NCBI GenBank assembly: GCA_020347645.1
Contig: CP070736.1
Coordinates: forward strand, 396,553 to 453,083
Reading direction: 5' to 3'
DNA length: 56,531 nucleotides
Origin: Methanobacteriota archaeon
GTDB lineage: Archaea > Thermoplasmatota > Thermoplasmata > UBA10834
Both the position numbers and the translations under genes were made by a program. Positions 2,824 to 55,086 of this stretch are shown here, one piece after another. Under the pieces are notes generated by a model. The model saw only the letters and a program-made list of their open reading frames with translations, was not told the origin of the DNA and made no database searches. The number at the start of each line of letters is the position of its first letter. The stretch's first letter is position 1.

Positions 2824-5800
2824 ATGGGAGCATGGTTCAAATTGACCGGCAACTACCTGAAGAGCCTCCAGCTTGCGAAACAGCTCGAGCAGCGTGCGAA
2901 AGAGGCGACCAAGAACAAGAAGCTTGCCGAAAAGGAACGAGAAGCCCTGCAAGATCTAATTGATCTGTGCGAAGAAAGCGATGTGGACCTGTCAGGCGTT
3001 GACAGACTTTTGAGCGAGTTCTCTGCCGCTATCAACGCGAAGGACTACCAAACTGCCATAGGCCATGCCAGAAAGGCGATCGAATCGGCAAGGAACGCAT
3101 ACATTCAGAAGATCGCAGACGTTGCCGACTCGGTGGATGCGGTGCTGAAGCTGATCACCTCGACTGAGAGCGAGTCCAAAGGCGCCTTGGAGATGCTGGA
3201 GAAGAGCAAGGAACTCGTACTCAAGGACGAACTTCAAGACGCTATGAAGCAGGCCAGGAGCGCATACGACGCGGCTGAGAGGACTTTTCACGAGCATTTC
3301 TCCCTTAAGTACTCGCAGGCTCAGGAGACCGTCAACCAGGCTAAGGAGATGGGCGATGATGTCAGCCTCTTCGAGGACCTTCTGAGTCGTTCCAAATCAG
3401 CGCTTGAAAAACAGGATTACGAGGGTGGCATCTCCCAATTGAATGAGGCGCTCGAAGGAGCTGGCGAGAACGTGAGATCGCAGATAGAGGATGCGATATC
3501 TAAGGCGGAGGACTTGACGCGTGCCGGCCAGGGAATCGAAGCGGATATGGCCCGGGTTGAGAGCCACGTAGAGCGGGCGAGAGCAGCTTTGGAGACTCTC
3601 AAATACAGAGATGCGTTGAGCTACTCGAAGAGGGCAGAGAGCGATGCTGAGAAGGCGATATCGAGCAGGCTCAGCGATGGAATTCGCGAATTCAGAGAAG
3701 ACATAAAGTCGGCACAGACGATTGACAAGGACTCTCAGGAATCCAGAGATCTGCTCGACAAGGCTCAGGAGGCAATCAAGGACAAGCGGTTCTTGGATGC
3801 CATCGACATCTTCGAGAATGCAAAGAAGAAGAAGCACGAGGCGAACTTCCAGGCAGTCCTCGGCGTGATAGCGAAAGCGAAGGACAAGTTCGTTCTGGCC
3901 AAGAAAGTAGGTGTTGATATGAGCAAGGCGTTGGAGCTGCTCAACACCTCTAGAAAGAGCCTTCGCAAGGGGGACTTCGACGATGCCATAAGGCTGGCGG
4001 AGGAGAGCGGAGAAGCAGTGGAGAATTCGCTGCAATCGTTCTATCGCGCGCGTGACGAACTAGTGGAGCTGACGAAGATAATCAAGCTGATGAAGAGTAT
4101 TGGACAGGACATCGCAGATGTTGGATCCCGCCTCGAGGAGGCGAAGAAATCATTCGAGGACAGAGACTACGAAAAATCTTCCGAGGCATCGTCCGAAGGA
4201 ATTTCAGGCGCTAGGGAGAGAGTGTACGAAATTGCCAGAGAGAAGATAGACAGCGCGGACGGCATAGTCAAACTGGGCAAGTCAATAGGAGCGGATATCG
4301 CCGAGGCAGAAGCTGACCTAGCGAAGGCCGCAGAAGCGATATCGAGTGAGAATCTTTCCAATGCTATCCACCTCGCAAGCGAGAGCCTGGATGCGGCGAA
4401 CAACGCAACATCGGCGGCGCTCAACGCCAGGCTGCGCAGCCTTGATCAGTTTGTGGATGGCTTTGCGAAACAGGACGAGATCATCGACGATGTGAGGGAC
4501 AAGATCGCGGAGGCCAGGCAATTCCTCGGAACCGGCGACCTATTCAGTACCAACGACCTCCTGGGCGAGATCACCGTCCGTATTGAGAACGTTGGGAGAG
4601 AGGAATGCGAAAAGCTCCTGACATCCGCGCGTGAAAGGCTGAATGTGGCAGAGTCACTGGGTGCTGATACAAAGGCGGTTGAGGAAGCATTCACCATAAT
4701 CGACGAACTCATCGAGAAGAAATCCTATGACGAGACGATGGTGAAGATTAAGGAGGCCAAGGAGCAGGCAGACGAAGTGTCGTTCAGGTTCCTCCAGGCC
4801 GAGTTCTCGTCCGCAAAGGACGCTCTGGAAGAGGCGCAGTCGCTCGGAATAGATGTCAGCGACTCCAGGAAGCAACTCAAAGAAGCCAGAGCGAAAGCGG
4901 AATCGCAGAATTTCATAGATTCTCATGAAATGGTCGCATCTCTGAAGAAGACTGTCGACAGCGCGATCACACGGCATGAGATGATCAAAGATAAGATTCG
5001 GAAGGCTGAGGGGCTCATACAGGAAGCATTGGCAAGCAAGGCGAACGTAGCAGGCCTCGATGAACCCCTGGAGAAAGCCAGGAGGCTGCTCACGGAGGGC
5101 AGGATTGACGATGCCGAAGCAAAATTGGACAATCTTATAGACGAGACTGAGAAACGCTTAGCGATGTATCTTGCAGCAAAGCATATCCTGGCGTCGAAGG
5201 AGAACATTGAGCTTTCTATGTCACATGGCTTGGATGTCCAGGAAGCGCAGGAACTCCTGTCGAAAGCGAAAGAGAGCATGAAGAACAAGAGCTATGACGA
5301 GGCTCTCGAACTCAGCCGAGAATCGGACGAATTTGCCCAGAGAGCACTGGCTGAAGGCGTCGAGGTGCTGGTCAAAGAGCTTCGCAGGATGATTACCGAA
5401 GCGAAGAACGTTAGCATGGATACTGCAGGTGCTGAAAAGCTGGTCGAGAAAGCGAGCGTGCTTGCGACAAACGATGACTACGCTGAGGCGCTCAGGTGTC
5501 TGGACTCCGCCAAGGAGGACATAGATCATATCAGGAACCTCAACGCGCACGCGACGACCGAGATAAAGACTGCAAGGACGAATCTGAAGGAGGCGGAGAT
5601 GCTCAACATGGATGTGGGTCAGGCCCGTGAGATGTTGGAGCAAGCCGTTGATGCGCTAACAAGGCACCAATACGCCATAGCCCTTGAGTTGGCGAAGAAG
5701 TCTTCCGAGACATCGATCGAGATCACGAAAGCCAGTGTATGGAAGACTCTAGAGGATTTCAAGGAACGCATAAGCAAAGCTTCAGAAGAAGGCGTGTACG

Positions 5801-7356
5801 TTGGCACGGCGGAGCGGTGCGTGGCCGAGGGAATAGAGGCGTTCAACGACAAGAGATATCAGGACTCGCTCAAACTGGCGATGAAGTGCGAGGCTGAGAT
5901 GGAGCGAGCAGAGCTGCAGAAGGAGATCAGCACCAAAGCAGTGGAGAACGCCCGGAAGAAGGTGACAGGAGCTGAGGCCGAAGGTATCAAGTCGGACAGT
6001 GCGGTCAACAAGGTCGAAGAGGCGGAGCGTCTGCTGGCGAAGGGACGATACACTGATGCGCTCGTATCGGCGATAGAAACCGGCGATATTCTTCACAACA
6101 TAAGGGAGCATTATGACCGTGCAAGGCTCGAACTCAGCGCAGTCAGGGAGCAGCTGGAGAGGTTGAAGAAGGTCAAGATCGACACTTCTGAATGCGATGA
6201 GATCCTTGATATCTCCAGAGAACATCTCAGTTCGCAGGACTTTGAGAAATTCAGCGATACACTCGCAAGATGCTCCGCGAAGGTAGGCGATCTCTTCGAG
6301 AACTCCGTCAGCAATCTCATGGAGAAATCGACGGAGAAGATTTCTCTGGCAAAATCACTTGGTATCAACACGAAGGCCTGTGAGGATCTGCTAGAGGTGG
6401 CCAAGACCTCGTTCTCGGAGAAACTCTGGGACTTCGCCTACCAGCAGGCGGAGGAGTGCGGCAGCAAATGCGGCGAGTTGATAGACAAGAAGCTTGGCGG
6501 ACTCTTTGCGGACGCTGGGGCGAGATTGGATGCACTCGGTCACTTGGGTGCCGGAGTTAAAACTATCCAGGAAAGCATGGACGTCGCAAAAGGATTCTGC
6601 GAAGCTGGTGACCATGTGAAGGCTTTCGACATCCTGATGGAAGTCGATCAGAGGATAGCGTCAATCGAAGATTCCAACAGGGAGTTCATTGACATATCGA
6701 TCGCTGCCGAAAGCGCCATCGAGAACCTCAAACGGCTCGGAGGTCAGATCAGGGAAGCGGAACGCCTTCTCGCGCTCGCGGACCTGGAGAAAGAGAAGGA
6801 CTACGATTCCGCGATCGAACTCGTAGCAGAAGCGCTGGATACAGCCCAAACCGACTTGGAATCGTATGCCCCCAATATTGATGGCGTCATCGAGACGGAA
6901 GGACTCTATCAAGACCAGGAGGGACAGATCACACTGGTGCTGAGGAACAGCGGCAAGGCCGAGGCAAGAGCCATCACCGCGGAGATGTCAGGTGAGTTCG
7001 AAGTGATTTCCATTCAGAGTCTCACATCCATTGGTCCCGGCAGTGAAGAGCGCCTGACAGCGAAGGTCGTGCCGAAGTTGGACGGAGAGTTGTCTATCAG
7101 CGCAAATGTGAGTTCCAAGAGACCGTTCGACGCCATAACTGATACGGTGGAGGTGAAGGGCAAGCTCGAAGTCTATCCCGCAGGGCCACCGTTCAAGATA
7201 ACACGGGCCAAGAGCGTGGCGAAGTGCGAGGTGTGCAAGGGCAAAATCAAGGAAGGCTTCGACGTGGTCTCCTGCAGATGCGGCAGCCAACATCATCTGA
7301 CGTGCGCCAAGAGATTCAAGACCTGTCCTGTCTGTTCGCAGGATTTTAAGTTCTAG
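2824..7356 (+). CDS. Giant helical-repeat protein with C-terminal RING-like zinc module
   Basis: I do not recognise a named family. The 1510 residues have no signal peptide or membrane segment, so the protein is probably cytoplasmic. From about residue 20 to 1360 there are about 21 imperfect repeats of roughly 65-70 residues. Each has a pattern like lGxDxxxaexLLxxAkxxl followed by a dyxxAlxlaxes helix, as in KSLGINTKACEDLLEVAK or KKVGVDMSKALELLNTSR. The repeats are very acidic and lysine-rich and should form a long alpha-helical rod or solenoid. Residues ~1360-1460 look like a beta-sandwich (ITLVLRNSGKAEARAITAEM). The last ~45 residues hold CEVC, SCRC, QHHLTC and CPVC, spaced as a RING-like or treble-clef zinc site. 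ATG 2824 lacks a good Shine-Dalgarno site. A scaffold or adaptor role is inference. Confidence 0.8.
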   Translation: MGAWFKLTGNYLKSLQLAKQLEQRAKEATKNKKLAEKEREALQDLIDLCEESDVDLSGVDRLLSEFSAAINAKDYQTAIGHARKAIESARNAYIQKIADVADSVDAVLKLITSTESESKGALEMLEKSKELVLKDELQDAMKQARSAYDAAERTFHEHFSLKYSQAQETVNQAKEMGDDVSLFEDLLSRSKSALEKQDYEGGISQLNEALEGAGENVRSQIEDAISKAEDLTRAGQGIEADMARVESHVERARAALETLKYRDALSYSKRAESDAEKAISSRLSDGIREFREDIKSAQTIDKDSQESRDLLDKAQEAIKDKRFLDAIDIFENAKKKKHEANFQAVLGVIAKAKDKFVLAKKVGVDMSKALELLNTSRKSLRKGDFDDAIRLAEESGEAVENSLQSFYRARDELVELTKIIKLMKSIGQDIADVGSRLEEAKKSFEDRDYEKSSEASSEGISGARERVYEIAREKIDSADGIVKLGKSIGADIAEAEADLAKAAEAISSENLSNAIHLASESLDAANNATSAALNARLRSLDQFVDGFAKQDEIIDDVRDKIAEARQFLGTGDLFSTNDLLGEITVRIENVGREECEKLLTSARERLNVAESLGADTKAVEEAFTIIDELIEKKSYDETMVKIKEAKEQADEVSFRFLQAEFSSAKDALEEAQSLGIDVSDSRKQLKEARAKAESQNFIDSHEMVASLKKTVDSAITRHEMIKDKIRKAEGLIQEALASKANVAGLDEPLEKARRLLTEGRIDDAEAKLDNLIDETEKRLAMYLAAKHILASKENIELSMSHGLDVQEAQELLSKAKESMKNKSYDEALELSRESDEFAQRALAEGVEVLVKELRRMITEAKNVSMDTAGAEKLVEKASVLATNDDYAEALRCLDSAKEDIDHIRNLNAHATTEIKTARTNLKEAEMLNMDVGQAREMLEQAVDALTRHQYAIALELAKKSSETSIEITKASVWKTLEDFKERISKASEEGVYVGTAERCVAEGIEAFNDKRYQDSLKLAMKCEAEMERAELQKEISTKAVENARKKVTGAEAEGIKSDSAVNKVEEAERLLAKGRYTDALVSAIETGDILHNIREHYDRARLELSAVREQLERLKKVKIDTSECDEILDISREHLSSQDFEKFSDTLARCSAKVGDLFENSVSNLMEKSTEKISLAKSLGINTKACEDLLEVAKTSFSEKLWDFAYQQAEECGSKCGELIDKKLGGLFADAGARLDALGHLGAGVKTIQESMDVAKGFCEAGDHVKAFDILMEVDQRIASIEDSNREFIDISIAAESAIENLKRLGGQIREAERLLALADLEKEKDYDSAIELVAEALDTAQTDLESYAPNIDGVIETEGLYQDQEGQITLVLRNSGKAEARAITAEMSGEFEVISIQSLTSIGPGSEERLTAKVVPKLDGELSISANVSSKRPFDAITDTVEVKGKLEVYPAGPPFKITRAKSVAKCEVCKGKIKEGFDVVSCRCGSQHHLTCAKRFKTCPVCSQDFKF

Positions 7357-15986: not shown

Positions 15987-18755
15987 TCAAGATCGTCGCC
16001 TACATCGGGCGCGACTGATTAGCGCGAAGAGCAGAAGGACAACGACTATCGGCAGCAGCAACAACGGGAATTCGGGTATGGCGTCACCGCCCACATTTAT
16101 CTCGATGCTGCCCGTTGATGTCAAGCCGCTTCCATCCATTATCTCCACCACTACGATGTATGTGCCTGGCGATTCAAACTGATGGGATGCCTCCAGACTG
16201 TTCAGCCAATCGGTGTCCCATCCCCCGTCCCCATTCCAGTCCCAGCGGGCACACAAATCTGTAGTAGAAGTCTCAGCGTCGTACGAAGAAGAAGCATCAA
16301 AGTCAAAGATCACCGAGGTGTCACCCTGTGACTGATCTGACTCCACCGATACCACGGGTGGAGAATTGACCAGAAGTAGAGCACAGGCCTGATCCCAATC
16401 ATAAGCGAAGTGCTCTTCATCATCGCGGACTTCGACCTCCGCGGTGTAGGGCTCCTCGCGGCTTTCAGGGCAGATGAAGTCGAAGGAGAACACGAAAGGT
16501 GCACCCGGTTCAGGGGTGTCGGTGTCAGTCATCGTTGTGGCCGAGGACTCGACGCTGAAGATTACCGTGACCGTATCGCCCTCGGCGTCCGCTACCTCGA
16601 CATCGAAGCGAACCATATCGCCTGGGGAGTAGTAGTCCAATAGGGGGGCTATGGAGATGGATCGCACCAAAGGCATTGCATTTCCATCCATAACTTGCAC
16701 AACGGCGGATTCGCTCACATTGTTGTCGTGTTCGTCCGCTGCCCAGACTGTCAGTACGAAGCTGTCAATGGTTTCATAGACATGCGACGCTGAGTGGCCT
16801 TCGGTCGGGTTGCCTGAGGTTATCGCGGTGCCATCGCCCCAATCGTACCAAAAGCTCAGCTGGGAGCCGGAGGGATTGACGATGTCAATAGGCGTGACTT
16901 CAAGTGGTACGTTCAGAACAGCGGCGTACGACTCCTGAAGCGAGAACTGAGGCGATGCCATGCTGATCCGGATGTCATCGAGCCAGGCAGTGTCGTCGAG
17001 TTCACTGGTATCTGAATCCTTCGTGTAATTCCAGTATGCCGTGTGAGTCCCTTCCCCGAGGCTATATGACACGTCGGTCCAATCCACATCTCCGCTTATG
17101 GCATGGCGGATATCGTCGTTGGGGACTGAGAAATGGAGGATGTCCGAACCTTCCTCTGAAGACACTTTCCAAGAGAACGCTAAGACCGCTGGTCCCTCGA
17201 CTGCAAGTGCAAGCGATGAAGTCTCACCATCGCCCACATCACCGCTCTGAATGGAATCTTCATCGACGGCTGAGCTATCTTCGACAGGCACCCAACTCAC
17301 GCCAGACGCACAGGTGAATGTTACGCCCGAGGCGTCTACGGCGTCGTCCGAGTTCACGACATCGTACCTTGGGAAGATCACGGTCACGGCTCCGGGTGTA
17401 GTTCTAGGTACATCGATCGATTGACCTGACGACCTCGAGGGCGATCCAATCGAGAACGCTCCTTCGTGTGACTCTATCTTGAACGACGATATCGTGCCTC
17501 TCGAAGGCGAAGCGCCGACGTCCAAGAAGAAGTTCTCGTTTGAATCTTCGTAGTTCTGTACGAACTCCGTGATGTCCACGCACATGAAAGTTGGATATGA
17601 ATGGGATCCAATCCTATCTTCGATTGAAAACGGTATCTTTGATGCCACTGGCGATGACATGGATCCGACGCCGATCTCTAGAGACGCGGCTCTGGACGGC
17701 GGATCGTTGAAGTGCCAATTCGCCACCAAGCTGGGGGAGTAGTCCTCTATGTCCAGCAAGTAGTCCAACTGCGCCTTGTCAGTGGCTCCGAGCTCCATCA
17801 AAGCATCATATGTGAACCAATAGAATCCGTCAATTCCCCAGCCGTCACCCCACGAGTTCACAACCCAGAACGCTCCAACCTCATCATCATCTGTAATGGT
17901 ATCGTTGTAGCCGACGATCGTCTGGGCATGGTTCAAATCGAGCGAGTCGTACTCTTGGGAAGTAATGATGTGGTTCCCATCCGAGAACGCTGGATAGTAT
18001 TCATTCGCGTCGATGCCAAAAGTGACGGGTATTCCTTCAGCCACAAGCAGCTTGATCTCCTCAATTGTGGAAGCACCAGAATACTCAATGTTGAAAACCT
18101 CGCTCGCTCTATGAGCAGGGGCTTCACGGAAAGCCGAAGGTGAGCCCATGTCAACATACTCATACTCGTCGAAGGGCATCGTGGCCATGGTGGCGGCGCC
18201 CCAATCCTGGATTACCCTCATATTGGACTCCATGTTCGAACCAAGATCGCGACCAGCGTTTGATCTCGCGTATGTCCACGCAGGAGATATCAGTTGTGAT
18301 GGTTCGCCAAGCGGCGCAAGCGTCCAGTCGTTGTCCGTAGCCTCTTGGAAACCGTACGCGTAATATGTAGCAGCCCAGGCCGCACAGGACGGCTGAGAGG
18401 ACTGGTTCCCAACCGCCGGGAATGTGGGAAGGGCGGAAAGATTCACTGCTTCAGGCAGCTCCCCGAAATCTGCTTCTATCGCATCGTGTACGTTTACGAC
18501 ACCCACCATGGATACCAGCTCTTCTTCAGTGAGAGGCGAAAGGCCTGTTCCAAATCCGTCAACGATGACATTGTAGTTCTTTGCCGGTTCGAACACTCCG
18601 CAGGTTCTCCTGAGTCTGTCGGCGTCGTCAGAAGTCATCTTGTGGTGCAGAATAACGACGTCGGTAACGTCACATCGAGCAGCGGAGGACGAAGGCAGGA
18701 AGACGGACGCGCAGAGGATGAAGACAACGATGATGGAAGATCCTGCAGATTTCAT
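15987..18755 (-). CDS. Secreted papain-family (C1) cysteine peptidase with PKD domains and PEF-type C-terminal sorting signal
   Basis: 922 residues from ATG 18755, which follows GTGATTT and starts a signal peptide (SIIVVFILCASVFL, cleavage near SSSAA). The C1 catalytic domain has the oxyanion glutamine Gln118 and nucleophile Cys124 (NQSSQPSCAAWAA, papain spacing), the histidine in LNHAQTIVGYND and the asparagine in VVNSWGDGWG. Two or more beta-domains follow, including PKD-type repeats (YDWGDGTA, HVYETIDSFVLTVWA; WDWNGDGGW, HQFESPGTYIVVVE). The tail IPEFPLLLLPIVVVLLL plus an arginine-rich end resembles PEF-CTERM signals processed by archaeosortases. It should act outside the cell on proteins or peptides, anchored to the envelope. 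It is divergent from an ABC exporter-like operon. A longer frame to 18872 lacks a signal peptide at its start. Confidence 0.9.
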   Translation of the reverse strand: MKSAGSSIIVVFILCASVFLPSSSAARCDVTDVVILHHKMTSDDADRLRRTCGVFEPAKNYNVIVDGFGTGLSPLTEEELVSMVGVVNVHDAIEADFGELPEAVNLSALPTFPAVGNQSSQPSCAAWAATYYAYGFQEATDNDWTLAPLGEPSQLISPAWTYARSNAGRDLGSNMESNMRVIQDWGAATMATMPFDEYEYVDMGSPSAFREAPAHRASEVFNIEYSGASTIEEIKLLVAEGIPVTFGIDANEYYPAFSDGNHIITSQEYDSLDLNHAQTIVGYNDTITDDDEVGAFWVVNSWGDGWGIDGFYWFTYDALMELGATDKAQLDYLLDIEDYSPSLVANWHFNDPPSRAASLEIGVGSMSSPVASKIPFSIEDRIGSHSYPTFMCVDITEFVQNYEDSNENFFLDVGASPSRGTISSFKIESHEGAFSIGSPSRSSGQSIDVPRTTPGAVTVIFPRYDVVNSDDAVDASGVTFTCASGVSWVPVEDSSAVDEDSIQSGDVGDGETSSLALAVEGPAVLAFSWKVSSEEGSDILHFSVPNDDIRHAISGDVDWTDVSYSLGEGTHTAYWNYTKDSDTSELDDTAWLDDIRISMASPQFSLQESYAAVLNVPLEVTPIDIVNPSGSQLSFWYDWGDGTAITSGNPTEGHSASHVYETIDSFVLTVWAADEHDNNVSESAVVQVMDGNAMPLVRSISIAPLLDYYSPGDMVRFDVEVADAEGDTVTVIFSVESSATTMTDTDTPEPGAPFVFSFDFICPESREEPYTAEVEVRDDEEHFAYDWDQACALLLVNSPPVVSVESDQSQGDTSVIFDFDASSSYDAETSTTDLCARWDWNGDGGWDTDWLNSLEASHQFESPGTYIVVVEIMDGSGLTSTGSIEINVGGDAIPEFPLLLLPIVVVLLLFALISRARCRRRS

Positions 18756-18794
18756 TGAAATCACTCGAATGTAGTCCGCCTTGATACTGACCCG

Positions 18795-18807
18795 CCATAT
18801 TTTTACC
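18795..18807 (-). promoter_or_regulatory. Possible TATA box of the peptidase gene
   Basis: The minus strand reads GGTAAAAATATGG about 45 bases before ATG 18755, the best AT-rich box in the 176-base divergent region. It leaves room for a short leader with the GTGATTT ribosome site. Confidence 0.4.
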
Positions 18808-18931
18808 TTTGTGCCACATACAACACCACCTACTGGCAATTCCTCAAGCTCCTCTCGCAGGATAAGACTCATAAGAGGAACAGGCCATGGATGTCAGGAG
18901 TGTGCAATCGATTTCAGGGAGAGTGATATGA

Positions 18932-22835: not shown

Positions 22836-23018
22836 GTCGAAGCATCCGGTGAAATGTCAGACTGGCAGCACCGACGCCGATCCACTAGTCAACAATGAAT
22901 CCATTTACGGCTGGATGACGTGGAAGTTACGTCGGATGTGCCAAGAAGGCCTTGTGTCAGACGGGACGAACAGTCGTGCCTTTCACCCGTCGAACGACAT
23001 GGAGTCGAAATCTGGAAA

Positions 23019-26000
23019 ATGCTTTATGACGACAAAACATTAAGTTTTCAGGACTCAGGTGAGTTTGACTTGGGGATACTCGATTCACTAACTAACAAGG
23101 AGAAGAGGCTTCTGAACAGAGTCGACAAGGAGTTGACAAAGATAGATGCCCTCATCAAAGCGGGCAAACGTGAGGAAGCATTTTCGTCTCTTAAGAAACA
23201 GATATCTCTTTTGAACGAAGGTATGGGCAGCATTGACAAGCTGAAGACCGACTTCTCGAGACTCCTATCGACGATGGGCTTCAAATCAATAACGCTCACA
23301 GAGCACAGTACTGCCGAGGATTGCGCCAAGGTCGCTCTTCAACTCGATCCGGGGAATCCTGATGCTATGGTAGTCCTTGGCAAGGCGGCCTTGGAGCTTG
23401 GGCGTGGCGAGGACGCAATCGCATGGCATAAGAAAGCGACGGAGCTGCGGCCGAAGTCGCCCGTATACTGGTCTGCGTTGGGCGATGCCCACGAATCTCT
23501 AGACGAGATATCCGATGCAATCGTAAGTTATCGGCAAGTAGTGGCTCTCGACCCAGACAGTGTAACACATTACGACAAGATTCTCTTGCATGAACCAAAG
23601 GACACAGATATCATCAATCGCAAGGGCAACGCCCTCTCGAGGTTGAAGAGATATGGTGAAGCTGTAGAGACCTTCAACTCTGGCATTGAGATACAGCCCA
23701 AGGACAAGGACTTATGGATTGGCCTGGGCGCTGCGCTGAATTTCGACGGCAAGGCCAAGGAAGCCATCGAAGCGCTTGACAAGGCATATAAGATAGATCC
23801 CAAGGATGCGTATATCCTCGACAATTTGGGGAGGATCCATCACAAACTCGGCAATCAGAAGCAAGCGCTCAAATGTTTCACTCGAGCGGTAGAACTGGAC
23901 CAATCAAATGCAGTTCTGTGGAACGAGTTAGGGGTTGTCCAGGAGGAAATGAACTCATTTGATCAGGCTATAGAGTCATTTGACAAAGCGCTGGAGATTG
24001 AGCCGGATAATCTCAACATCCTGCTGAACAAGAAGAAGACTCTGATGAAGTCCGAGCGCTTTGTCGACGCGATAGAAGTGTGCGACAGGATAATGGTCAT
24101 AGATGCAAGGAATCACGAGTCGTTGTTCGACAAAGGGCGCGCTCTCTTCGCCTTGGAGAGATATGATGAAGCCCTTACGTTTACCGAGGCATCCCTCACA
24201 ATCGCACCCGAATCGAAACCCGCGATGAAGCTCAAGAAGGACGCATTGATCAGACTGAACCGTCATGCAGATGTAGTGACGTGGTCCAACAGAATTCTGG
24301 GGGTCAGCCCGGACGACCACGAAACCATGCACGACAAAGGTGTTGCACAGACCGAGTTGGGGAAATTCCACGATGCCATCAAGACCTTCGAGAAGGCGCT
24401 GAAATCCGCACCGGACAAGCGTCGAATACTGATTAGCTTGAAGGAAGCGTACAAGAAGGTGCAGAAGGACGCCGAAGTCGTTCGCGTATGCGATGAAATA
24501 ATATCTATCGACGGCTCGGAAAAAGAAGCGCATTTCGACAAAGCCGTGGCTCTTGACAGGATGGATTGCGCCGACGAGGCCGTGGTCACTTACATAATGG
24601 CGCTGAAGAATGATCCCAAGAATCCCGACATATTCTATAGCTTGGCTGCACTCTTCCTGAGGCTCGGAAAGACAAAGGAGGCGCTTGATTACATCAAGCA
24701 GGGGCTTTCGGCCAATCCTTCCTCTGTTCTGCTGTGGCGATTAAAGGGGAGGGTCGCATTCACAGAAAAGGATTATGAGGATTCCATAGAGTCCTGGGAG
24801 AAAGCCCTCGAACTCGACCCTTCTGACTTGGCCACCGGCAGATTCCTTGGCAGAGCGCTGGTCGGAATGAAGAGGTACGAGGAGGCGCTGTCGAGATATG
24901 ATTCGGTCCTGGAAGCGGATTCGAAGGACACAGAGGCTTGGACGCTGAAAGCGGAAGCTCTGAACCTACTGGAGCGATACGATGAGGCTTTGGCGGCAAT
25001 TCGTCAGACCATGAGGCTGAGACCGAATTCTGCCGACCTCATGGTCAAAGAGGCGCGAGTCCTGATTAAACTCGACCACAGAGAGGACGCCTTGGCCTCC
25101 TTCAACTCCGCGTTGGCCGCAGATCCGAGAAATGTAGATGTCCTCGACGAGAAGAAGGAGCTGCTGAAATCGCTGAAGAGATATGACGAAGTAATTCAGA
25201 CATGCGATGAAATACTGACGTTATCGCAGAACAACAAGGACGCCTATGTCGACAGGGGAAGCGCTGCCCTGTTCCTCAAGAGGCCTAACGATGCCCTGTT
25301 CGCGTTCAATAGAGCTCTGACCATCGATGACGCGGACTTGGACACCCTTGAACTCAAGAAACTCGCACTCAAGGAGTTGGACGATAACGAGTCCGTTGTC
25401 GATGTCAGCGACCGGATATTGGAGCTCAGTCCCAAGAACAAAGCGGCTTTCTCCGACAGGGCGGGCGCACTAGATAAGCTAGGACGGCTGGAAGAGGCGC
25501 TCGAGAGTTACGAAAAGGCGATAGCACTCGATGAGAAGGATGTCTTTCTCTGGAATCGGAAGGGGTCTCTACTGCTCAATGCCGGAAAGGCAGCCCAAGG
25601 AGCAGAGGCGTTCGAGCATGCGCTCAAGCTTGACGAGAATCAGCCGTTCATACTCAACAACCGCGGAAAGGCGTATCTTGAGCTGAAGCGGTTCGAGGAA
25701 TCTCTTGCGGATTTCGACAAGGCTATCAAGATCCTGCCGAAAGTCCCTGACTTCCATACTGATAGAGGGAGAGTCCTTGCCGCTATGGGGCGATTCGATG
25801 ACAGCTTGGACTCGTTCACTGAGGCCAGGAGATATGCCCCGAACGACATCTCGGCGCTCAAGTACATGGGAATGGCACTTCTCAAGCTCAACCGTACTTC
25901 AGAGGCTCTTGGCTGCTTTGACGAAGCTATTCGTCAAGGCTCCCAGGATAGGGACCTGTGGACTGCGAGAGCCAAGGCTTCGGAAGCAGCTGGGGAGAGG

Positions 26001-27473
26001 CAGGAGGCAGCTCGATCGTATTTGAAGGCGCTGGAGATCGATCCTTCTGACAAGGCCGCCTGGTACAGGCTGGGGCTGCTGTACGTGGAAATGCAGATGT
26101 TCGAAGAAGCGAACGAGTGTTTCGACAGGGCTCTGGAGCTCGACGACTCCAACTCGAAGGTTTGGATGAGCAAGGGTTTCGTGATGGAGAAGCTCGACTC
26201 ATTCCAGGAAGCCGCATCGGCGTACGATCGGGCGATAGGTCTGGACTCGAACGACAAGAATGCATGGAACAGCAAGGGATACGCAATGCTCGAACTGGGA
26301 AGCCCAGAACAGGCTATGAGATGCTTCGACCATGCACTCACCATAGATCCCTACTTCGAAGCGGCCACTGAGGGCAGGAAGACCGCCGAAGAGGAGATAC
26401 GCAACACGAAGATTGAAGACTACTCCCGCGCGGTGCTAGATTTCGAGTACGCACATGGTAGGCCCGTTTCGAAAGAGGAGGCGTTCAGAGTATGTGGCAT
26501 ACCCTACGCGTTCCTGGATGATGTGCTCGAGTATCTCAGCGACTCGAGCGAGGTGGTTTTATCGGAACTATCGAGAGCAGGGTTCGACAGACATGAGCAG
26601 CTTTCTAGGGAGGTCCTCATCGCAGCGATGCTGAAGAGGGATCTATCCGATCACGGGTTGAGGCTATGTGATATAACTGTGAACTTCCCCGAATTGAAGG
26701 TTTCGAGCGCGAAACGAATCCTAAGCTACATCCGTGCCGTTGAGGAGTACAAGTTCACTCCGGAGGTCGCGGATCCGCAGACAGATTCCCTTCTGCGACA
26801 AGCGTTGGATCTGCCCGCCGACCAGAAGAACGTCTTGGGACTGATCAGGAATCTGGGAGTGGGAGTCTACCAAGCCAGACAGCTGGTAACCATCCTGATG
26901 ACATTCCACGAGGGTGGTGTAGAGTCCCCCACGGTTTCATTGACATCAATAGTAAGCGAGAGTTTTGGAGACTACTCTCCTTACGAGGAGCAGATACCCA
27001 CTACAACTTCTTCAAGAGATAGGGCGCCCACGTCCGCGGATGAGGACCGATATGAGGAGGAAGACTACGAAGATGAGCCAGAGCCCCGTAAGAAGGTTAC
27101 CAGAAGTAGAACTCGACAAAGCTCCGTGAGACCCAGCGCCAAACGGCGACAGGCTGACGACGAGGAGGAAACGCCAACCGATTTGGTGGGAAGGCGTTGT
27201 CTCTTTCACGGAGGAGTAGCTGTAAGCCGCTGCTCAAAATGCAAGGCTGTGCTGTGCAGGGAATGCATAAGGGGTTCGGACCGATGTCCAAGATGCAACA
27301 CGCCTCTAAAGGCAAGCGCTTCCAAGCGAGGAGGGGGGGAGCGGGAACAGGACGAGGAGGAGGACGAGGAGGGCCAGGACGAAAGCAGTCCACAGCAGCC
27401 CACGAAATCGCCGCGCAGGTCTAAGAAGAAAGGGGGTCAGAGCAGCAAACTGGAGGACATCTCGCGGCTATGA
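23019..27473 (+). CDS. Giant TPR-repeat protein with B-box-like zinc finger
   Basis: About 1484 residues from ATG 23019; the frame is open to 22920, but the first 33 residues do not look protein-like. The N-terminal ~85 residues form a lysine-rich helical segment. Residues ~95-1130 are about 30 tetratricopeptide repeats (for example LGRGEDAIAWHKKATELRPK and MQMFEEANECFDRALELDDS), an adaptor surface for partner proteins. A helical region of about 180 residues follows (FEYAHGRPVSKEEAFRVCG). Then comes a charged, disordered stretch, and CLFH-x8-CSKC-x4-CREC-x7-CPRC, which resembles a B-box/RING-type zinc site. The tail is acidic and then basic. No signal peptide or membrane helix is present. The overall plan repeats that of the giant at 2824. 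The partner proteins are unknown. Confidence 0.85.
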   Translation: MLYDDKTLSFQDSGEFDLGILDSLTNKEKRLLNRVDKELTKIDALIKAGKREEAFSSLKKQISLLNEGMGSIDKLKTDFSRLLSTMGFKSITLTEHSTAEDCAKVALQLDPGNPDAMVVLGKAALELGRGEDAIAWHKKATELRPKSPVYWSALGDAHESLDEISDAIVSYRQVVALDPDSVTHYDKILLHEPKDTDIINRKGNALSRLKRYGEAVETFNSGIEIQPKDKDLWIGLGAALNFDGKAKEAIEALDKAYKIDPKDAYILDNLGRIHHKLGNQKQALKCFTRAVELDQSNAVLWNELGVVQEEMNSFDQAIESFDKALEIEPDNLNILLNKKKTLMKSERFVDAIEVCDRIMVIDARNHESLFDKGRALFALERYDEALTFTEASLTIAPESKPAMKLKKDALIRLNRHADVVTWSNRILGVSPDDHETMHDKGVAQTELGKFHDAIKTFEKALKSAPDKRRILISLKEAYKKVQKDAEVVRVCDEIISIDGSEKEAHFDKAVALDRMDCADEAVVTYIMALKNDPKNPDIFYSLAALFLRLGKTKEALDYIKQGLSANPSSVLLWRLKGRVAFTEKDYEDSIESWEKALELDPSDLATGRFLGRALVGMKRYEEALSRYDSVLEADSKDTEAWTLKAEALNLLERYDEALAAIRQTMRLRPNSADLMVKEARVLIKLDHREDALASFNSALAADPRNVDVLDEKKELLKSLKRYDEVIQTCDEILTLSQNNKDAYVDRGSAALFLKRPNDALFAFNRALTIDDADLDTLELKKLALKELDDNESVVDVSDRILELSPKNKAAFSDRAGALDKLGRLEEALESYEKAIALDEKDVFLWNRKGSLLLNAGKAAQGAEAFEHALKLDENQPFILNNRGKAYLELKRFEESLADFDKAIKILPKVPDFHTDRGRVLAAMGRFDDSLDSFTEARRYAPNDISALKYMGMALLKLNRTSEALGCFDEAIRQGSQDRDLWTARAKASEAAGERQEAARSYLKALEIDPSDKAAWYRLGLLYVEMQMFEEANECFDRALELDDSNSKVWMSKGFVMEKLDSFQEAASAYDRAIGLDSNDKNAWNSKGYAMLELGSPEQAMRCFDHALTIDPYFEAATEGRKTAEEEIRNTKIEDYSRAVLDFEYAHGRPVSKEEAFRVCGIPYAFLDDVLEYLSDSSEVVLSELSRAGFDRHEQLSREVLIAAMLKRDLSDHGLRLCDITVNFPELKVSSAKRILSYIRAVEEYKFTPEVADPQTDSLLRQALDLPADQKNVLGLIRNLGVGVYQARQLVTILMTFHEGGVESPTVSLTSIVSESFGDYSPYEEQIPTTTSSRDRAPTSADEDRYEEEDYEDEPEPRKKVTRSRTRQSSVRPSAKRRQADDEEETPTDLVGRRCLFHGGVAVSRCSKCKAVLCRECIRGSDRCPRCNTPLKASASKRGGGEREQDEEEDEEGQDESSPQQPTKSPRRSKKKGGQSSKLEDISRL

Positions 27474-49857: not shown

Positions 49858-52800
49858 CTACACGCGCCGTCGTGCCTGTACCAAAGCCCCAGCTGCGAGG
49901 ACTGCAATACCGCTCATGGTCACTGTGGCCGCTATCAGCATTGCAGAAGAGCCAAGGTCTGAATTCAAGCCCGTTTCACTGTCTGTCCAGGTCATGGACA
50001 GGTCCTTCGATTCTTCGGCAAGGGAGTCTTCTATGCTCGTTGAGGATGGATATCCTGATATTGATGATTCGACCGCTGGTTCTGTGACGTTGAACTCTAG
50101 CCAAGGCGCCCCGTGGTACAGCAACCCTCCACCGCGCGGGTTGTCGAACACGTGCGGTCCCGAGATGGTTAGTATCTTTTCCCCGCTATCGTAACTGATT
50201 TGCCCGCTTGGCAAAGCATTGAGAATGCTCGCTCCTGGCTCCATCTCTCCCAGGTACCGTATAGCGTCGTAGTCTGACGTGTCGCCTCCCCATACGTTCT
50301 TGATTGCATTCTTGTCGACGACTTGCCCGTAGTATCCCACGATGTCAGTGCCGTGCGGAAGCTCTATGACTAGCTCAGCATAATCTGGGAGCGTGAGTGC
50401 CCACGGGGTGCCTTCATACACTCTTTCCAACGAGTATGCAGGATCCCCGGAATTCCAACTTTGGTAGGTCAGATAGTAGTAAGGCGTGAACTGCGAATCT
50501 GGATGACTCTGGCTCGCCGGGAGGTAGTCGGCACCTGTCGCCTCCCAGGCCCACGCGCCAGGCGCCCCTGTCGTCATTGTGCTGGCATTTGATTTGACAG
50601 AACGTAGGCTCCATTGGCAAACGGTATCCATTACGACATTGGATTTGTCTTCCGAATAGTCCACCGTCATGTTGAAGTCCTCGAAGAATGCTTGGTGTGG
50701 AGATATTCCCGTCTCAAGAAGCCATCTCGTCATCAATATCTCGTAACCCGCAGAGATGTGAGCTATCTGGAGATTCACAGTCGTGCCATCGCTTGTCAAC
50801 CTCATCATTGTCGCCAGATCGAGATAGATGTACTCGTAGGCATTGTAGATATCCAGTCTGTCATTGCCTTCGACATCGAGCCAGGTCCTCCAATCTGCGA
50901 CGTAAGATGCTTCGTTCGATGCCCACCAATCGGCGGGGATGGCTCCTGTAGGCAGGTTCAGCCATTCCTCGGCGGCAGCCCTGTTCATTGTCACTTCGTA
51001 AAGCGTAGCCATCCAATAGCCGTCAGTATCCTCGGCAAAGTCATCCCCTGGCCAGTCCGGATGGTCTCCCCATGTTGGGATCCAATACCCCTCCCACCAT
51101 CCTCCAGTGTAGGGGTGGATGTAGTTGAAGTTGATATGAACGGAGGCTTCGGCTCCTACGATCTCCGGGCCAAATGTGGGCATGAATTCAGGAGCACTGA
51201 CATTTACGAAATCGATATCGACAGCCGTGATGTTCCATCTGTACGGCGCGTAAATCGTTCCTTGATCGTTGTTGCCGTTTGGATTCGCGCTCATCGAGTA
51301 GAGATATGTCACACTCCCTGGATCTGATGTAAGCAATCGCTCAGTGTCCCAGGTGATGCTGTTCACCCTCCAATCCCAGAAACCATGCCAGGGTTCCTCA
51401 AACATGTCGTATATCCTGTATGTGATGAAGGAAGTGACGAGTGCGGTCACCTCGATTCCTAGTTCGTCCGTTAGCGCGGCGTCTTCGCTGTCGACGACAG
51501 TTACGGTCTGAAGTCCAATCTCGGATAGAGAGAGATCGGTGAAAGAATGCGACCCAAAGTCGACGGCAGGAACGAATTCGTAGTTCTCCGGAAGGACTGC
51601 GTACGTGCTAGTATCAGATGTGTCAAACGAGACTACACCGTCATACTCCTCAAACAATTCGCCATACTGATGATATGCAGATACGGTTATCCCGAAGGTT
51701 TCGTTTTCCATTGCTGTCGATGGTCCGAAGATGGCAAGCATATCTGCCACCAAGTCTTCGATGACTATGTCTTCTTGGCTGCCTTTCTTGGTCGCGTCGG
51801 ACGTGTCTTCAGCCGTGACGTTGAAGTTGCCTGGATCGTCGAACATCACCGAATCGGTGAAGGTTCGGACGCCAGCGTCCGCAAGGATGAAGGTGTAATC
51901 GTCGGGCAGAACATGCAAACCAGTTGCGTTTGTTGAGAATGTTATCTCACCAACATAATTTTCGAAAATGGAGTTGTATTGATCATATGCTGTCACAGTG
52001 ACTGAGGAGTAGTTGTTCTCCCACATATTCTCTATGTCTGTAACCGTGAAGCGATCGAGCATAGGTAGCTCTCCTACAACCCAAGCCTCAAGCATTCCGG
52101 TTATCGATGGGTCCATCGTGTCGTTGCCCCAGATAGTGAAGTATCCTTGCGCCGTGAAGTTGATGACAGTGCTCGCTTCAGGCTCTCCTGGCAAGAAGAC
52201 GATGTCTTCTGGAAGCTCGACCTCTCCGCTCCTGTTCGTTTCGAAAGTTACTGTTCCATCGTATGTCATGAAGACACGGTCGTATTGATCGTATACTGTT
52301 ACTATCATGACCTGATCCGTTTCCACCTGGGCGGGGTCGTCGACTCCTGTCAACAGGAAATGGTCTGCGGCAGCTGCAGCGAGGACGGTCTGTGAAGACT
52401 CCCCAGACGCTTCGGGCATGTCTACGTCGCTCACGTTCACGGTGTGTAGTCCTTGGGTGCTGAATGTCACGCTGAAGCTCTGAACTCCGTTCATCCCAGG
52501 GTCGAATGGAGAGTCAGATGGCAGTTCTGCGCCGCTGTCATTCGATTCAAATCTCACTGTTCCATCGTAGTCTGTGAAGACTTCGTCCCACTGGTTGTAG
52601 GCTGTAACAGTGATTTCCGTAGGCTCAGCGGCGATCACATCGTCGCCTGAGAAGGCCACCTCAAAAGAGGCGATTTGCGCACTCTCCTGAACCACGATGT
52701 CGCTTTGAGTGCCAGAGATTGTTGCATCGTCCACGTCCACGGCTGTCAAGTAGTGGGTAGCCAGATGGGTCACTGGGTCGACTGTGTTGAAAGCGGCCTG

Positions 52801-55086
52801 AAAGGTATGCCGGCCAGCATCTGTGAGCGGATCGAAAGTGTAGTCGGCTGGGAGGACTGCAGACTCATCAGACGATTCGAAGGTCAGAGTACCTGCATAA
52901 TCTGCGTAGACGTCGCCTGTGAGGGAATTCCTTATTGTTACGTTGAAGCTGGTTATCTCTCCAACCTCTAGAGGGCTTCTAACATCCTCCAAATAGAGGC
53001 TTAGGGACGGCGGTCCGACCACGGGAGGTCTGAATTCAACATACGGCGCACCATAAGGCAACAACTCAAGTCGCTCCCATTCGTCCATTAGCCACTCATG
53101 CGCCGTCTGGTCCTTCGACCATGTCCACATGTCGAATGGGCCTGAGTAGGTGATAGTGCGCTCTGTCTCGTCTATCGAAATATGCTCCGGAGCATCAGAA
53201 GGCATCGGCTCGGCGTAGACAATTGTCATCCCGGCTGTAGAGTCAATAGTGCCGGGTATGAGATCTCCATCGATGCCCTCAATGTCGTGAGCGAAGTAAA
53301 GAAGATCCTCGCCAGCAGGCCACTCTATGACCAGGGTCTCACCTTCGGACAGGTTCCAGGAGCCTGGCGTGTAATCCCAGGGCATCTCCTCTCCGTACCA
53401 CAGACTCCCAGGCGCATAGTTGACGTAAGTGAAATCCGCATATTGGTCGAACAATGAAATTGGATACTCAGGTGTCGATTCGATGTAATCCGCCATAACC
53501 GCCTCCCAAGCCCAGCAAGGCTCGCCCTCTTCGGTGGTTTCGTAGGCGTAGGCAGCATAGGCAACGGCAGCATCGATATCGATGTCCGCCATCTCCGGTC
53601 CAATTGCGGCATGGAAGTCGATGTCCTCCATCCAGTACTCGACGGGCATCCAGGCTTCATGCATCCATCTGAACATCAAGGCCTCTAGACCCCAGCCGAC
53701 AGTGTCAATGCTGATGGTTATTTGATTGTCCGACTGCTCAGCATTCAGGGCAAGGTAGTACAGGTCTAGGTAGTAGCCATATCCGTTGAATATCGCTAAT
53801 CGGTCATTGCCAGCCTCGTGCTCCAGCCAAGCCCACCAATCCTCTTCTACAGATTCTCGGTTTAAAGACCACCAAGCTTCGAAATCATCGAATTGCGTCG
53901 AAGTCACTCCAAGCACGGCCATGGCTGCTTGCTTGTCCAAGGTAATTGTTCCGTTGAGCAGGACATACCATCCGTCATAATACGAAAGCGGACCAATCCC
54001 CAACCGGTCTGCGCAGTAGTCATAGGTCGCATAGTCAATGTGCCAATCTATGGCTGCTGAACCTCCTCTAGCTGAGCCGAGGTAGGGAAGAAACTCCGGA
54101 TTCAGATTCATGCTCAATTCGGTCATGTTTCGCCCGGTTAGGTTCATGCGCATCATTGTGTATATCCATGTGTTGCCGGGGGGCGAGCTGGACGTCATAT
54201 ATACGTATGGGTAAGTATCCGTGATGGCCCATTCATCACCTACAATGTCTTCTCGCCATTGATACCATTCCCCGAATGGTTGGGCGAAGAGATCGTACCA
54301 ATAGTAATCTAGAGTTCTGACGGCTGTCTCTGTTGTGACTTCAACAGTTGCAGAGCCATAAACGGTCTTATCCCCCTTCGTAGCAGCGACCGTGAGTGTG
54401 GCGTTCACCTCAATCGAGGCGGAAAAGGAGACCGTCGAACCTATGCTCGGGGTGAGCGTATAGTCGTCCAGATTGACGCCTGAGACTGTCCACGAGAAAG
54501 TAGCATCGTTGACCGTGTTTCCTACCGAATCAGTTGCTGTGGCAGTGAAGTTCCATTCTTCGTCCGGCTGCAGAGTCTTATGCGACGGTGCGACGGTTAC
54601 GGAATCAAGGAATGGGGGATCGACTACGATTGAAGCTTCTACGCTTGCAGATCTTCCTTTATAGGCAACTTCGCACATAATCGTTCCCTCGCCACCTTCG
54701 GCGCCAGCAAGGAAAACAATGTCGGCGTTGCTGTCGGAATCCAAATCGCCAAGGGTAGCCGGAGTAACGGACCACTCGTATTCAACACCGTCATCCGCGG
54801 TCGCGATATCAGATCCCCATTTGACTTCCGCGGACAGCTCTTGAGTTGCCCCTGCAGGAACGTTCGGAATCTCCTCCGGAATCAGCCTTACTTCAAGGTC
54901 TTTGCCAAGGAGCAACAGATATGCGGCACTTCCGATGAGGGCTGCAGCGATTATGATTGCAAGAAGCACGATCCAAAGAGTCCTTTTATCTCCCTTTCTT
55001 GGTTCGGACAATGGCTCAGTTTGACTCTGTTCGTTCGATTCAGCGATTTCAATGTTCTCTTCATCGGCAACGCTATCTGATGACAA
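49858..55086 (-). CDS. Giant double-anchored surface protein with Ig-like repeats and a duplicated unrecognised domain
   Basis: 1742 residues. Residues 1-35 are acidic and cytoplasmic, and 36-60 form a membrane anchor (TLWIVLLAIIIAAALIG). Two Ig-like domains follow (~62-250). Then come domain A1 (~250-690), five Ig-like repeats of ~100 residues (~690-1213) with the pattern VTAYDQYxxxFxxYDGTVxFxxN, and domain A2 (~1213-1663). A second helix (~1712-1737) ends in RARRRV-like basic residues. A1 and A2 are distant copies: both have a YDLF/YDMF start, a WW-x-(S/A)-N segment, GNDRLxIxNxYxYxxLDL, and a final GAPxxEF. They are rich in Trp and Tyr. TTG 55086 has GGAGGGA upstream. It should form a long loop outside the cell held at both ends. 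Function unknown; adhesion or envelope structure is a guess. Confidence 0.85.
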   Translation of the reverse strand: MSSDSVADEENIEIAESNEQSQTEPLSEPRKGDKRTLWIVLLAIIIAAALIGSAAYLLLLGKDLEVRLIPEEIPNVPAGATQELSAEVKWGSDIATADDGVEYEWSVTPATLGDLDSDSNADIVFLAGAEGGEGTIMCEVAYKGRSASVEASIVVDPPFLDSVTVAPSHKTLQPDEEWNFTATATDSVGNTVNDATFSWTVSGVNLDDYTLTPSIGSTVSFSASIEVNATLTVAATKGDKTVYGSATVEVTTETAVRTLDYYWYDLFAQPFGEWYQWREDIVGDEWAITDTYPYVYMTSSSPPGNTWIYTMMRMNLTGRNMTELSMNLNPEFLPYLGSARGGSAAIDWHIDYATYDYCADRLGIGPLSYYDGWYVLLNGTITLDKQAAMAVLGVTSTQFDDFEAWWSLNRESVEEDWWAWLEHEAGNDRLAIFNGYGYYLDLYYLALNAEQSDNQITISIDTVGWGLEALMFRWMHEAWMPVEYWMEDIDFHAAIGPEMADIDIDAAVAYAAYAYETTEEGEPCWAWEAVMADYIESTPEYPISLFDQYADFTYVNYAPGSLWYGEEMPWDYTPGSWNLSEGETLVIEWPAGEDLLYFAHDIEGIDGDLIPGTIDSTAGMTIVYAEPMPSDAPEHISIDETERTITYSGPFDMWTWSKDQTAHEWLMDEWERLELLPYGAPYVEFRPPVVGPPSLSLYLEDVRSPLEVGEITSFNVTIRNSLTGDVYADYAGTLTFESSDESAVLPADYTFDPLTDAGRHTFQAAFNTVDPVTHLATHYLTAVDVDDATISGTQSDIVVQESAQIASFEVAFSGDDVIAAEPTEITVTAYNQWDEVFTDYDGTVRFESNDSGAELPSDSPFDPGMNGVQSFSVTFSTQGLHTVNVSDVDMPEASGESSQTVLAAAAADHFLLTGVDDPAQVETDQVMIVTVYDQYDRVFMTYDGTVTFETNRSGEVELPEDIVFLPGEPEASTVINFTAQGYFTIWGNDTMDPSITGMLEAWVVGELPMLDRFTVTDIENMWENNYSSVTVTAYDQYNSIFENYVGEITFSTNATGLHVLPDDYTFILADAGVRTFTDSVMFDDPGNFNVTAEDTSDATKKGSQEDIVIEDLVADMLAIFGPSTAMENETFGITVSAYHQYGELFEEYDGVVSFDTSDTSTYAVLPENYEFVPAVDFGSHSFTDLSLSEIGLQTVTVVDSEDAALTDELGIEVTALVTSFITYRIYDMFEEPWHGFWDWRVNSITWDTERLLTSDPGSVTYLYSMSANPNGNNDQGTIYAPYRWNITAVDIDFVNVSAPEFMPTFGPEIVGAEASVHINFNYIHPYTGGWWEGYWIPTWGDHPDWPGDDFAEDTDGYWMATLYEVTMNRAAAEEWLNLPTGAIPADWWASNEASYVADWRTWLDVEGNDRLDIYNAYEYIYLDLATMMRLTSDGTTVNLQIAHISAGYEILMTRWLLETGISPHQAFFEDFNMTVDYSEDKSNVVMDTVCQWSLRSVKSNASTMTTGAPGAWAWEATGADYLPASQSHPDSQFTPYYYLTYQSWNSGDPAYSLERVYEGTPWALTLPDYAELVIELPHGTDIVGYYGQVVDKNAIKNVWGGDTSDYDAIRYLGEMEPGASILNALPSGQISYDSGEKILTISGPHVFDNPRGGGLLYHGAPWLEFNVTEPAVESSISGYPSSTSIEDSLAEESKDLSMTWTDSETGLNSDLGSSAMLIAATVTMSGIAVLAAGALVQARRRV

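Follow-up and report, generated by a model that had tools for sequence, protein, structure and literature searches.

The window analysed here is a stretch of 56,531 nucleotides, covering positions 396553 to 453083 of a 1.42-Mb contig, from a Thermoplasmata genome that is 65% complete. Near its start, the window encodes a giant protein that consists of a helical cap, a long repetitive rod and a two-domain head (Table 1). A formiminotransferase-cyclodeaminase gene lies on one side of the giant's gene and TldD/PmbA genes on the other. Other long ORFs in the window encode 961 amino acids (positions 15987-18872, minus strand; no convincing NCBIfam match), 1742 amino acids (49858-55086, minus strand) and 1517 amino acids with ~21 true TPR repeats (22920-27473, plus strand).

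Table 1. Coordinates in the window of the gene for the giant protein and of its parts
Feature	Position	Strand	Basis or remarks
Giant rod protein, CDS	2824..7356	+	1510 aa; ORF call and collinear full-length homologues in the class
N-terminal helical cap, residues 1-53	2824..2982	+	L-x-K-Q-L motif at ~17-21, conserved in 33 homologues (column conservation)
Helical rod, residues 54-1350, 21 units of 62-64 aa	2983..6873	+	Autocorrelation, HMM units, AF2
CARDB-type Ig-like beta-sandwich	6898..7116	+	Pfam span residues 1359-1431; AF2 strands ~1352-1451
RING finger, residues 1466-1506	7219..7341	+	Ligands C1468, C1471, C1484, C1486, H1491, C1494, C1501, C1504

Self-comparison of the giant produced a peak at a lag of 62 residues (z = 10.8 versus shuffled sequences); further peaks, its harmonics, lay at 124-126, 182-189 and 250. 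An iterated HMM combined with inspection placed the unit starts at residues 54, 116, 178, 240, 302, 364, 428, 490, 552, 614, 676, 740, 803, 865, 929, 991, 1055, 1119, 1181, 1243 and 1306; two weaker units, 9 and 20, were positioned manually, guided by the spacing and the motif. The first-pass annotation had described about 21 repeats of 65 to 70 residues, of which the number of helical units stands, whereas the period, by both the lag and the HMM, is somewhat shorter. The rod contains 2 Pro in 1350 residues and is 35% charged, a composition that fits a soluble helical rod, and the maximum 19-residue hydropathy of the giant is 0.83, so that no transmembrane-like segment is present. The AlphaFold check proposed with the annotation was run on one 491-aa stretch of the rod (residues 860-1350; 7 sequences; pLDDT 82.5, pTM 0.47) and returned a regular two-helix repeat, in which a helix of ~15 residues, a turn of 3, a helix of ~41 and a turn of 5 follow one another. 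The view that the unit is not a standard TPR is borne out by these helix lengths and by the lack of any TPR model match, and a TPR solenoid of 34-residue helix-turn-helix repeats was rejected on the same grounds. Classical spectrin repeats, three-helix units of ~106 residues, were rejected as well because of the 62-64-residue period and the lack of a Foldseek match. Spectrin repeats and the rod would nevertheless be alike in forming three-helix bundles joined by continuous helices into a rod, but they differ in unit length, and neither sequence comparison nor Foldseek links them at E ≤ 0.001. More generally, Foldseek searches of the PDB and viral structure libraries with the rod model yielded no fold match at E ≤ 0.001; the rod resembles no solved structure.

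The head (residues 1346-1510) was modeled by AF2 with a pLDDT of 89.8. The beta-sandwich that had been noted after the rod is indeed present and is identified by Pfam as CARDB (PF07705; E = 7e-4, with a score of 20.1, below the Pfam cut-off of 22.7), and Foldseek matches it to the CARDB domain of PF1109 (PDB 3idu; TM on target, 0.58-0.65). The domain thus combines the Ig-like beta-sandwich of this family with a weak profile match. CARDB domains are usually extracellular; in contrast, that of the giant adjoins a RING in a protein free of membrane-like segments. The zinc module that follows (residues 1468-1504) reads C-x2-C-x12-C-x-C-x4-H-x2-C-x6-C-x2-C, and its eight ligands are invariant in 25/25 homologues from ~18 families; the RING is the most conserved part of the giant. 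Prok-RING_1 (PF14446) is detected in the full-length giant at E = 1.5e-5, under the curated cut-off, and in the isolated module at 6e-8, over the Pfam cut-off; 24 of the 25 modules match it, the best at 3.9e-16. A profile of the 25 modules searched against the PDB retrieved the RINGs of Arkadia, RNF165 and ARK2C (E = 5e-4 to 2e-3), together with weaker C1/PHD matches, which are expected among treble clefs; the top match, zinc-finger 2i13, was dismissed as an artefact of repeated CPxC fragments. The AF2 model has the beta strands and the helix of a RING in place. The eight Cys/His residues in RING spacing and the profile matches indicate that the module is a RING, presumably a binuclear one, and not merely any treble clef, in agreement with the RING-like assignment of the first-pass annotation. 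It shares the C4HC3 ligand order and the profile of Prok-RING_1 but here ends a 1500-residue rod and often occurs without E2 or a ubiquitin-like protein (Ubl). The impression that such a layout is new to archaea holds insofar as no counterpart was found in searchable papers, although the Prok-RING_1 family is already in Pfam. In the same phylum, CARDB-RING tails also occur on proteins of 2780-3198 aa in other classes (G164:C3:50462-51139, G153:C3:122426-123106 and G180:C403:7638-8327). Prok-RING is further found fused to an ABC oligopeptide ATPase (L138), a winged-helix-like protein (L142), a Kelch/TM protein (L141) and a TM protein with a DUF835-like tail (L137), and, among L137, L138, L140, L141, L142 and L147, on coiled proteins of 690-715 aa with a CARDB-like domain.

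Matches to the giant were found in 112 of 150 genomes of the class, a count in which the weaker coiled-coil matches are to be read with caution. In a 33-sequence alignment, most families (18-30% identity) place unit 21 at 1237-1252 residues from unit 1, a span that corresponds to the same 21 units; the array is shorter by some one to two units in f7, f4 and f24 and longer by about as much in f14, f16, f25 and f10. Corresponding units of different homologues score on average 51-68, compared with 35-39 for other units, which argues that the unit array is old and frozen: the duplication would predate the class, with the length held since. The f10 giant has lost both CARDB and RING, which shows that some lineages can do without the head.

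A search for Ubl modifiers and E2-like proteins, likewise proposed with the annotation, located both in a single operon of the same genome (G000 C1 ~17.2-19.5 kb; L078:622-2884). The operon encodes a ThiF/E1-like protein of 262 aa, an 82-aa Ubl that ends in PDPEGG (Pfam ubiquitin, E = 8e-4), an E2-like protein (UQ_con, E = 4e-12) with its Cys in HPNIMPPEDGGYVC (motif HPNI..GGYVC) and a JAB/JAMM protease. The PDP.GG end is invariant in 10/10 Ubls. By sequence and profile searches, E2 is present in 66 of the 150 genomes, strong Ubl matches fall in the same families, and E1-Ubl-E2-JAMM operons occur in many Thermoplasmata families. An earlier survey reported euryarchaeal parts of such systems in one marine group II genome only (PMC4327156), and among archaea E1/E2/RING cascades are proven for Caldiarchaeum, with reports of them from Asgards as well (PMC5654768); a cluster analysis placed E3-less JAMM-Ub-E1-E2 operons at a stage preceding Caldiarchaeum and Asgards (PMC6043591). 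No literature on E2 systems or on the giant in Thermoplasmata was found, an absence that is weak evidence given partial journal coverage.

The cognate E1, Ubl and E2 of a prospective E3 are therefore all encoded in the giant's genome, and the giant itself could be that ligase, with its RING recruiting Ubl-charged E2 and its rod offering up substrates for modification, which might be chromosome or division proteins. Besides the complete operon, the resemblance of the giant's RING profile to eukaryotic RING E3s is consistent with this role, as is the retention, in the RING encoded in the window, of two E2-contact features, with a hydrophobic residue preceding C2 (CEVC) and Pro following C7 (CPVC). 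That E2 and Ubl are present was not by itself accepted as proof of ligase function, however, and the phyletic distribution argues against the ligase role raised in the first-pass annotation. At the family level, counted by hand with f7 set aside and f8 undetermined, the giant's RING is found in 10/12 E2-positive and 12/14 E2-negative families (p = 1 by Fisher's test, which ignores relatedness); thus, it does not co-occur with E2/Ubl and appears, from this distribution, to be uncoupled from the Ubl operon. About 12 families retain it with neither E2 nor Ubl detectable, and no UQ_con match above the cut-off was found in nine RING-positive, E2-negative genomes. In Aciduliprofundum-like and f4 genomes, the giant's RING is the one RING detected, with no E2 or Ubl detected, so there it has a role independent of both. 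Conversely, f20 keeps E2, but its giant stops after the sandwich and has lost the RING. The E2-contact residues are also relaxed across the giant family (I/L/V before C2 in 14/25, Pro after C7 in 16/25) compared with 11/11 and 10/11 in a second protein that combines a RING with zinc ribbons (RZR; L132:3194-4207, L150:6219-7070, L133, L135 and L072). Strong RZR matches are confined to E2 families, and within f6 RZR occurs in 10/10 E2-positive genomes, including one weak match without a RING-profile match (G018), versus 0/7 E2-negative genomes. By these distributions, RZR tracks E2 far better than the giant's RING does and is the better candidate for the E3 of the Ubl operon. It is membrane-anchored in f6 and f20, and in f1, f6 and f20 it adjoins ftsZ and/or the psmA/SBDS/rrp4/rrp41 (proteasome/exosome) genes; in the genome of the window, the N-terminal half of RZR falls in a stretch of N. 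A RING protein of Caldiarchaeum subterraneum, srfp, is like the giant in being encoded in a genome with an E1/Ub/E2/JAMM operon, but srfp is small, operonic and shown to stimulate E2, whereas the giant, known from sequence, is encoded away from the Ubl operon; RZR would be the nearer functional counterpart of srfp (PMC5654768). Three families with E2 (f19, f25 and f28) lack a clear RZR and must therefore rely on a different RING, possibly that of the giant. Overall, we consider it unlikely that the giant is an E3 ligase.

The strongest individual hint of contact between the giant's RING and UBC-fold partners comes from f7, where the giant gene is divergent from an adjoining gene for a Ubl-UBC fusion (L059, L065, L125 and L130). 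This pairing would suit a ligase, but the fusion has lost the catalytic Cys position, as in UEV proteins. A small CDC48_N-like ORF (weak match) also adjoins the fusion gene. The f7 linkage might instead be coincidental and the RING just a zinc cap that stabilizes the structure or binds proteins, unconnected to Ubl chemistry in every lineage, which would fit its retention in families devoid of E2 and Ubl as well as the occurrence of Prok-RING_1 on proteins as different as L138, L142, L141 and L137, as a general binding module could be. We nevertheless find this improbable, since the f7 neighbor is specifically a Ubl-UBC protein, a chance pairing being unlikely, and since at least one Prok-RING protein is matched in 65/66 E2-positive genomes, compared with 42/84 E2-negative ones. 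In six families (f15, f19, f21, f23, f24 and f27), smc and scpA lie directly upstream of the giant on the same strand; scpB was found in five of the six, with a gap to the giant of ~42-202 nt where it was called. The giant might accordingly serve as an accessory condensin rod, acting with SMC-ScpAB specifically in chromosome condensation or segregation, a reading that we hold to be doubtful. The metabolic gene hutH, which is encoded on the other strand, accompanies the giant in eight families, among them all of the six that have smc and the one to which the window belongs; gene order alone thus persists here, and the position of smc may simply have been inherited, without a function in common. 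With this control, assigning function from synteny alone was rejected. Moreover, the giant has other contexts: ftsZ 12-41 nt upstream in both complete f14 (Aciduliprofundum-like) genomes (L056 and L063), the UEV-like gene of f7, KaiC-like ATPases (f9 and f13) and a coiled-coil protein with zinc ribbons (f25 and f28). Neither f18 nor most f6 genomes have a recognizable giant, and in the genome of the window scpB lies elsewhere (C1:730490). Membership in a defense system was also considered and rejected, as the giant has no PADLOC match.

Taking the observed domains, repeat number, frozen length, class-wide conservation and RING fold together, we favor a scaffold over a possible ligase and regard it as an even call that the giant serves as a cytoplasmic scaffold, a rod whose length hardly varies and whose CARDB-RING head is a docking module. 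In such a scaffold, the 21 units would be mini three-helix bundles that share the continuous ~41-residue helices, a spectrin-like topology with a shorter unit; the helix lengths suggest ~3.1 nm per unit and a rod of ~60 nm, with the structural model covering residues 860-1350 at a pTM of 0.47. The head would dock partner proteins, its RING binding proteins that include UBC-fold ones where present rather than acting solely as an E3 of the Ubl system, and the giant would work as a tether or spacer. Its partners may belong to chromosome segregation or cell division, as the smc-scpA order in six families and the ftsZ neighborhood suggest; a role in these processes is possibly the right one, with the hutH synteny warning against over-reading. 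Finally, in a decidedly improbable variant, the giant would be a RING ligase that uses a 60-nm ruler to place Ubl on segregation or division proteins a set distance away from an anchor; after loss of conjugation, a form that only docks would have survived.

If true, this last variant would make the giant an archaeal scaffold ligase acting at a fixed distance from its anchor. For the Ubl operons of Thermoplasmata, RZR, encoded beside proteasome genes, can be named as a candidate for the missing E3. As for the giant, the near-frozen repeat number of a ~1500-residue protein across the class implies a requirement for physical length.
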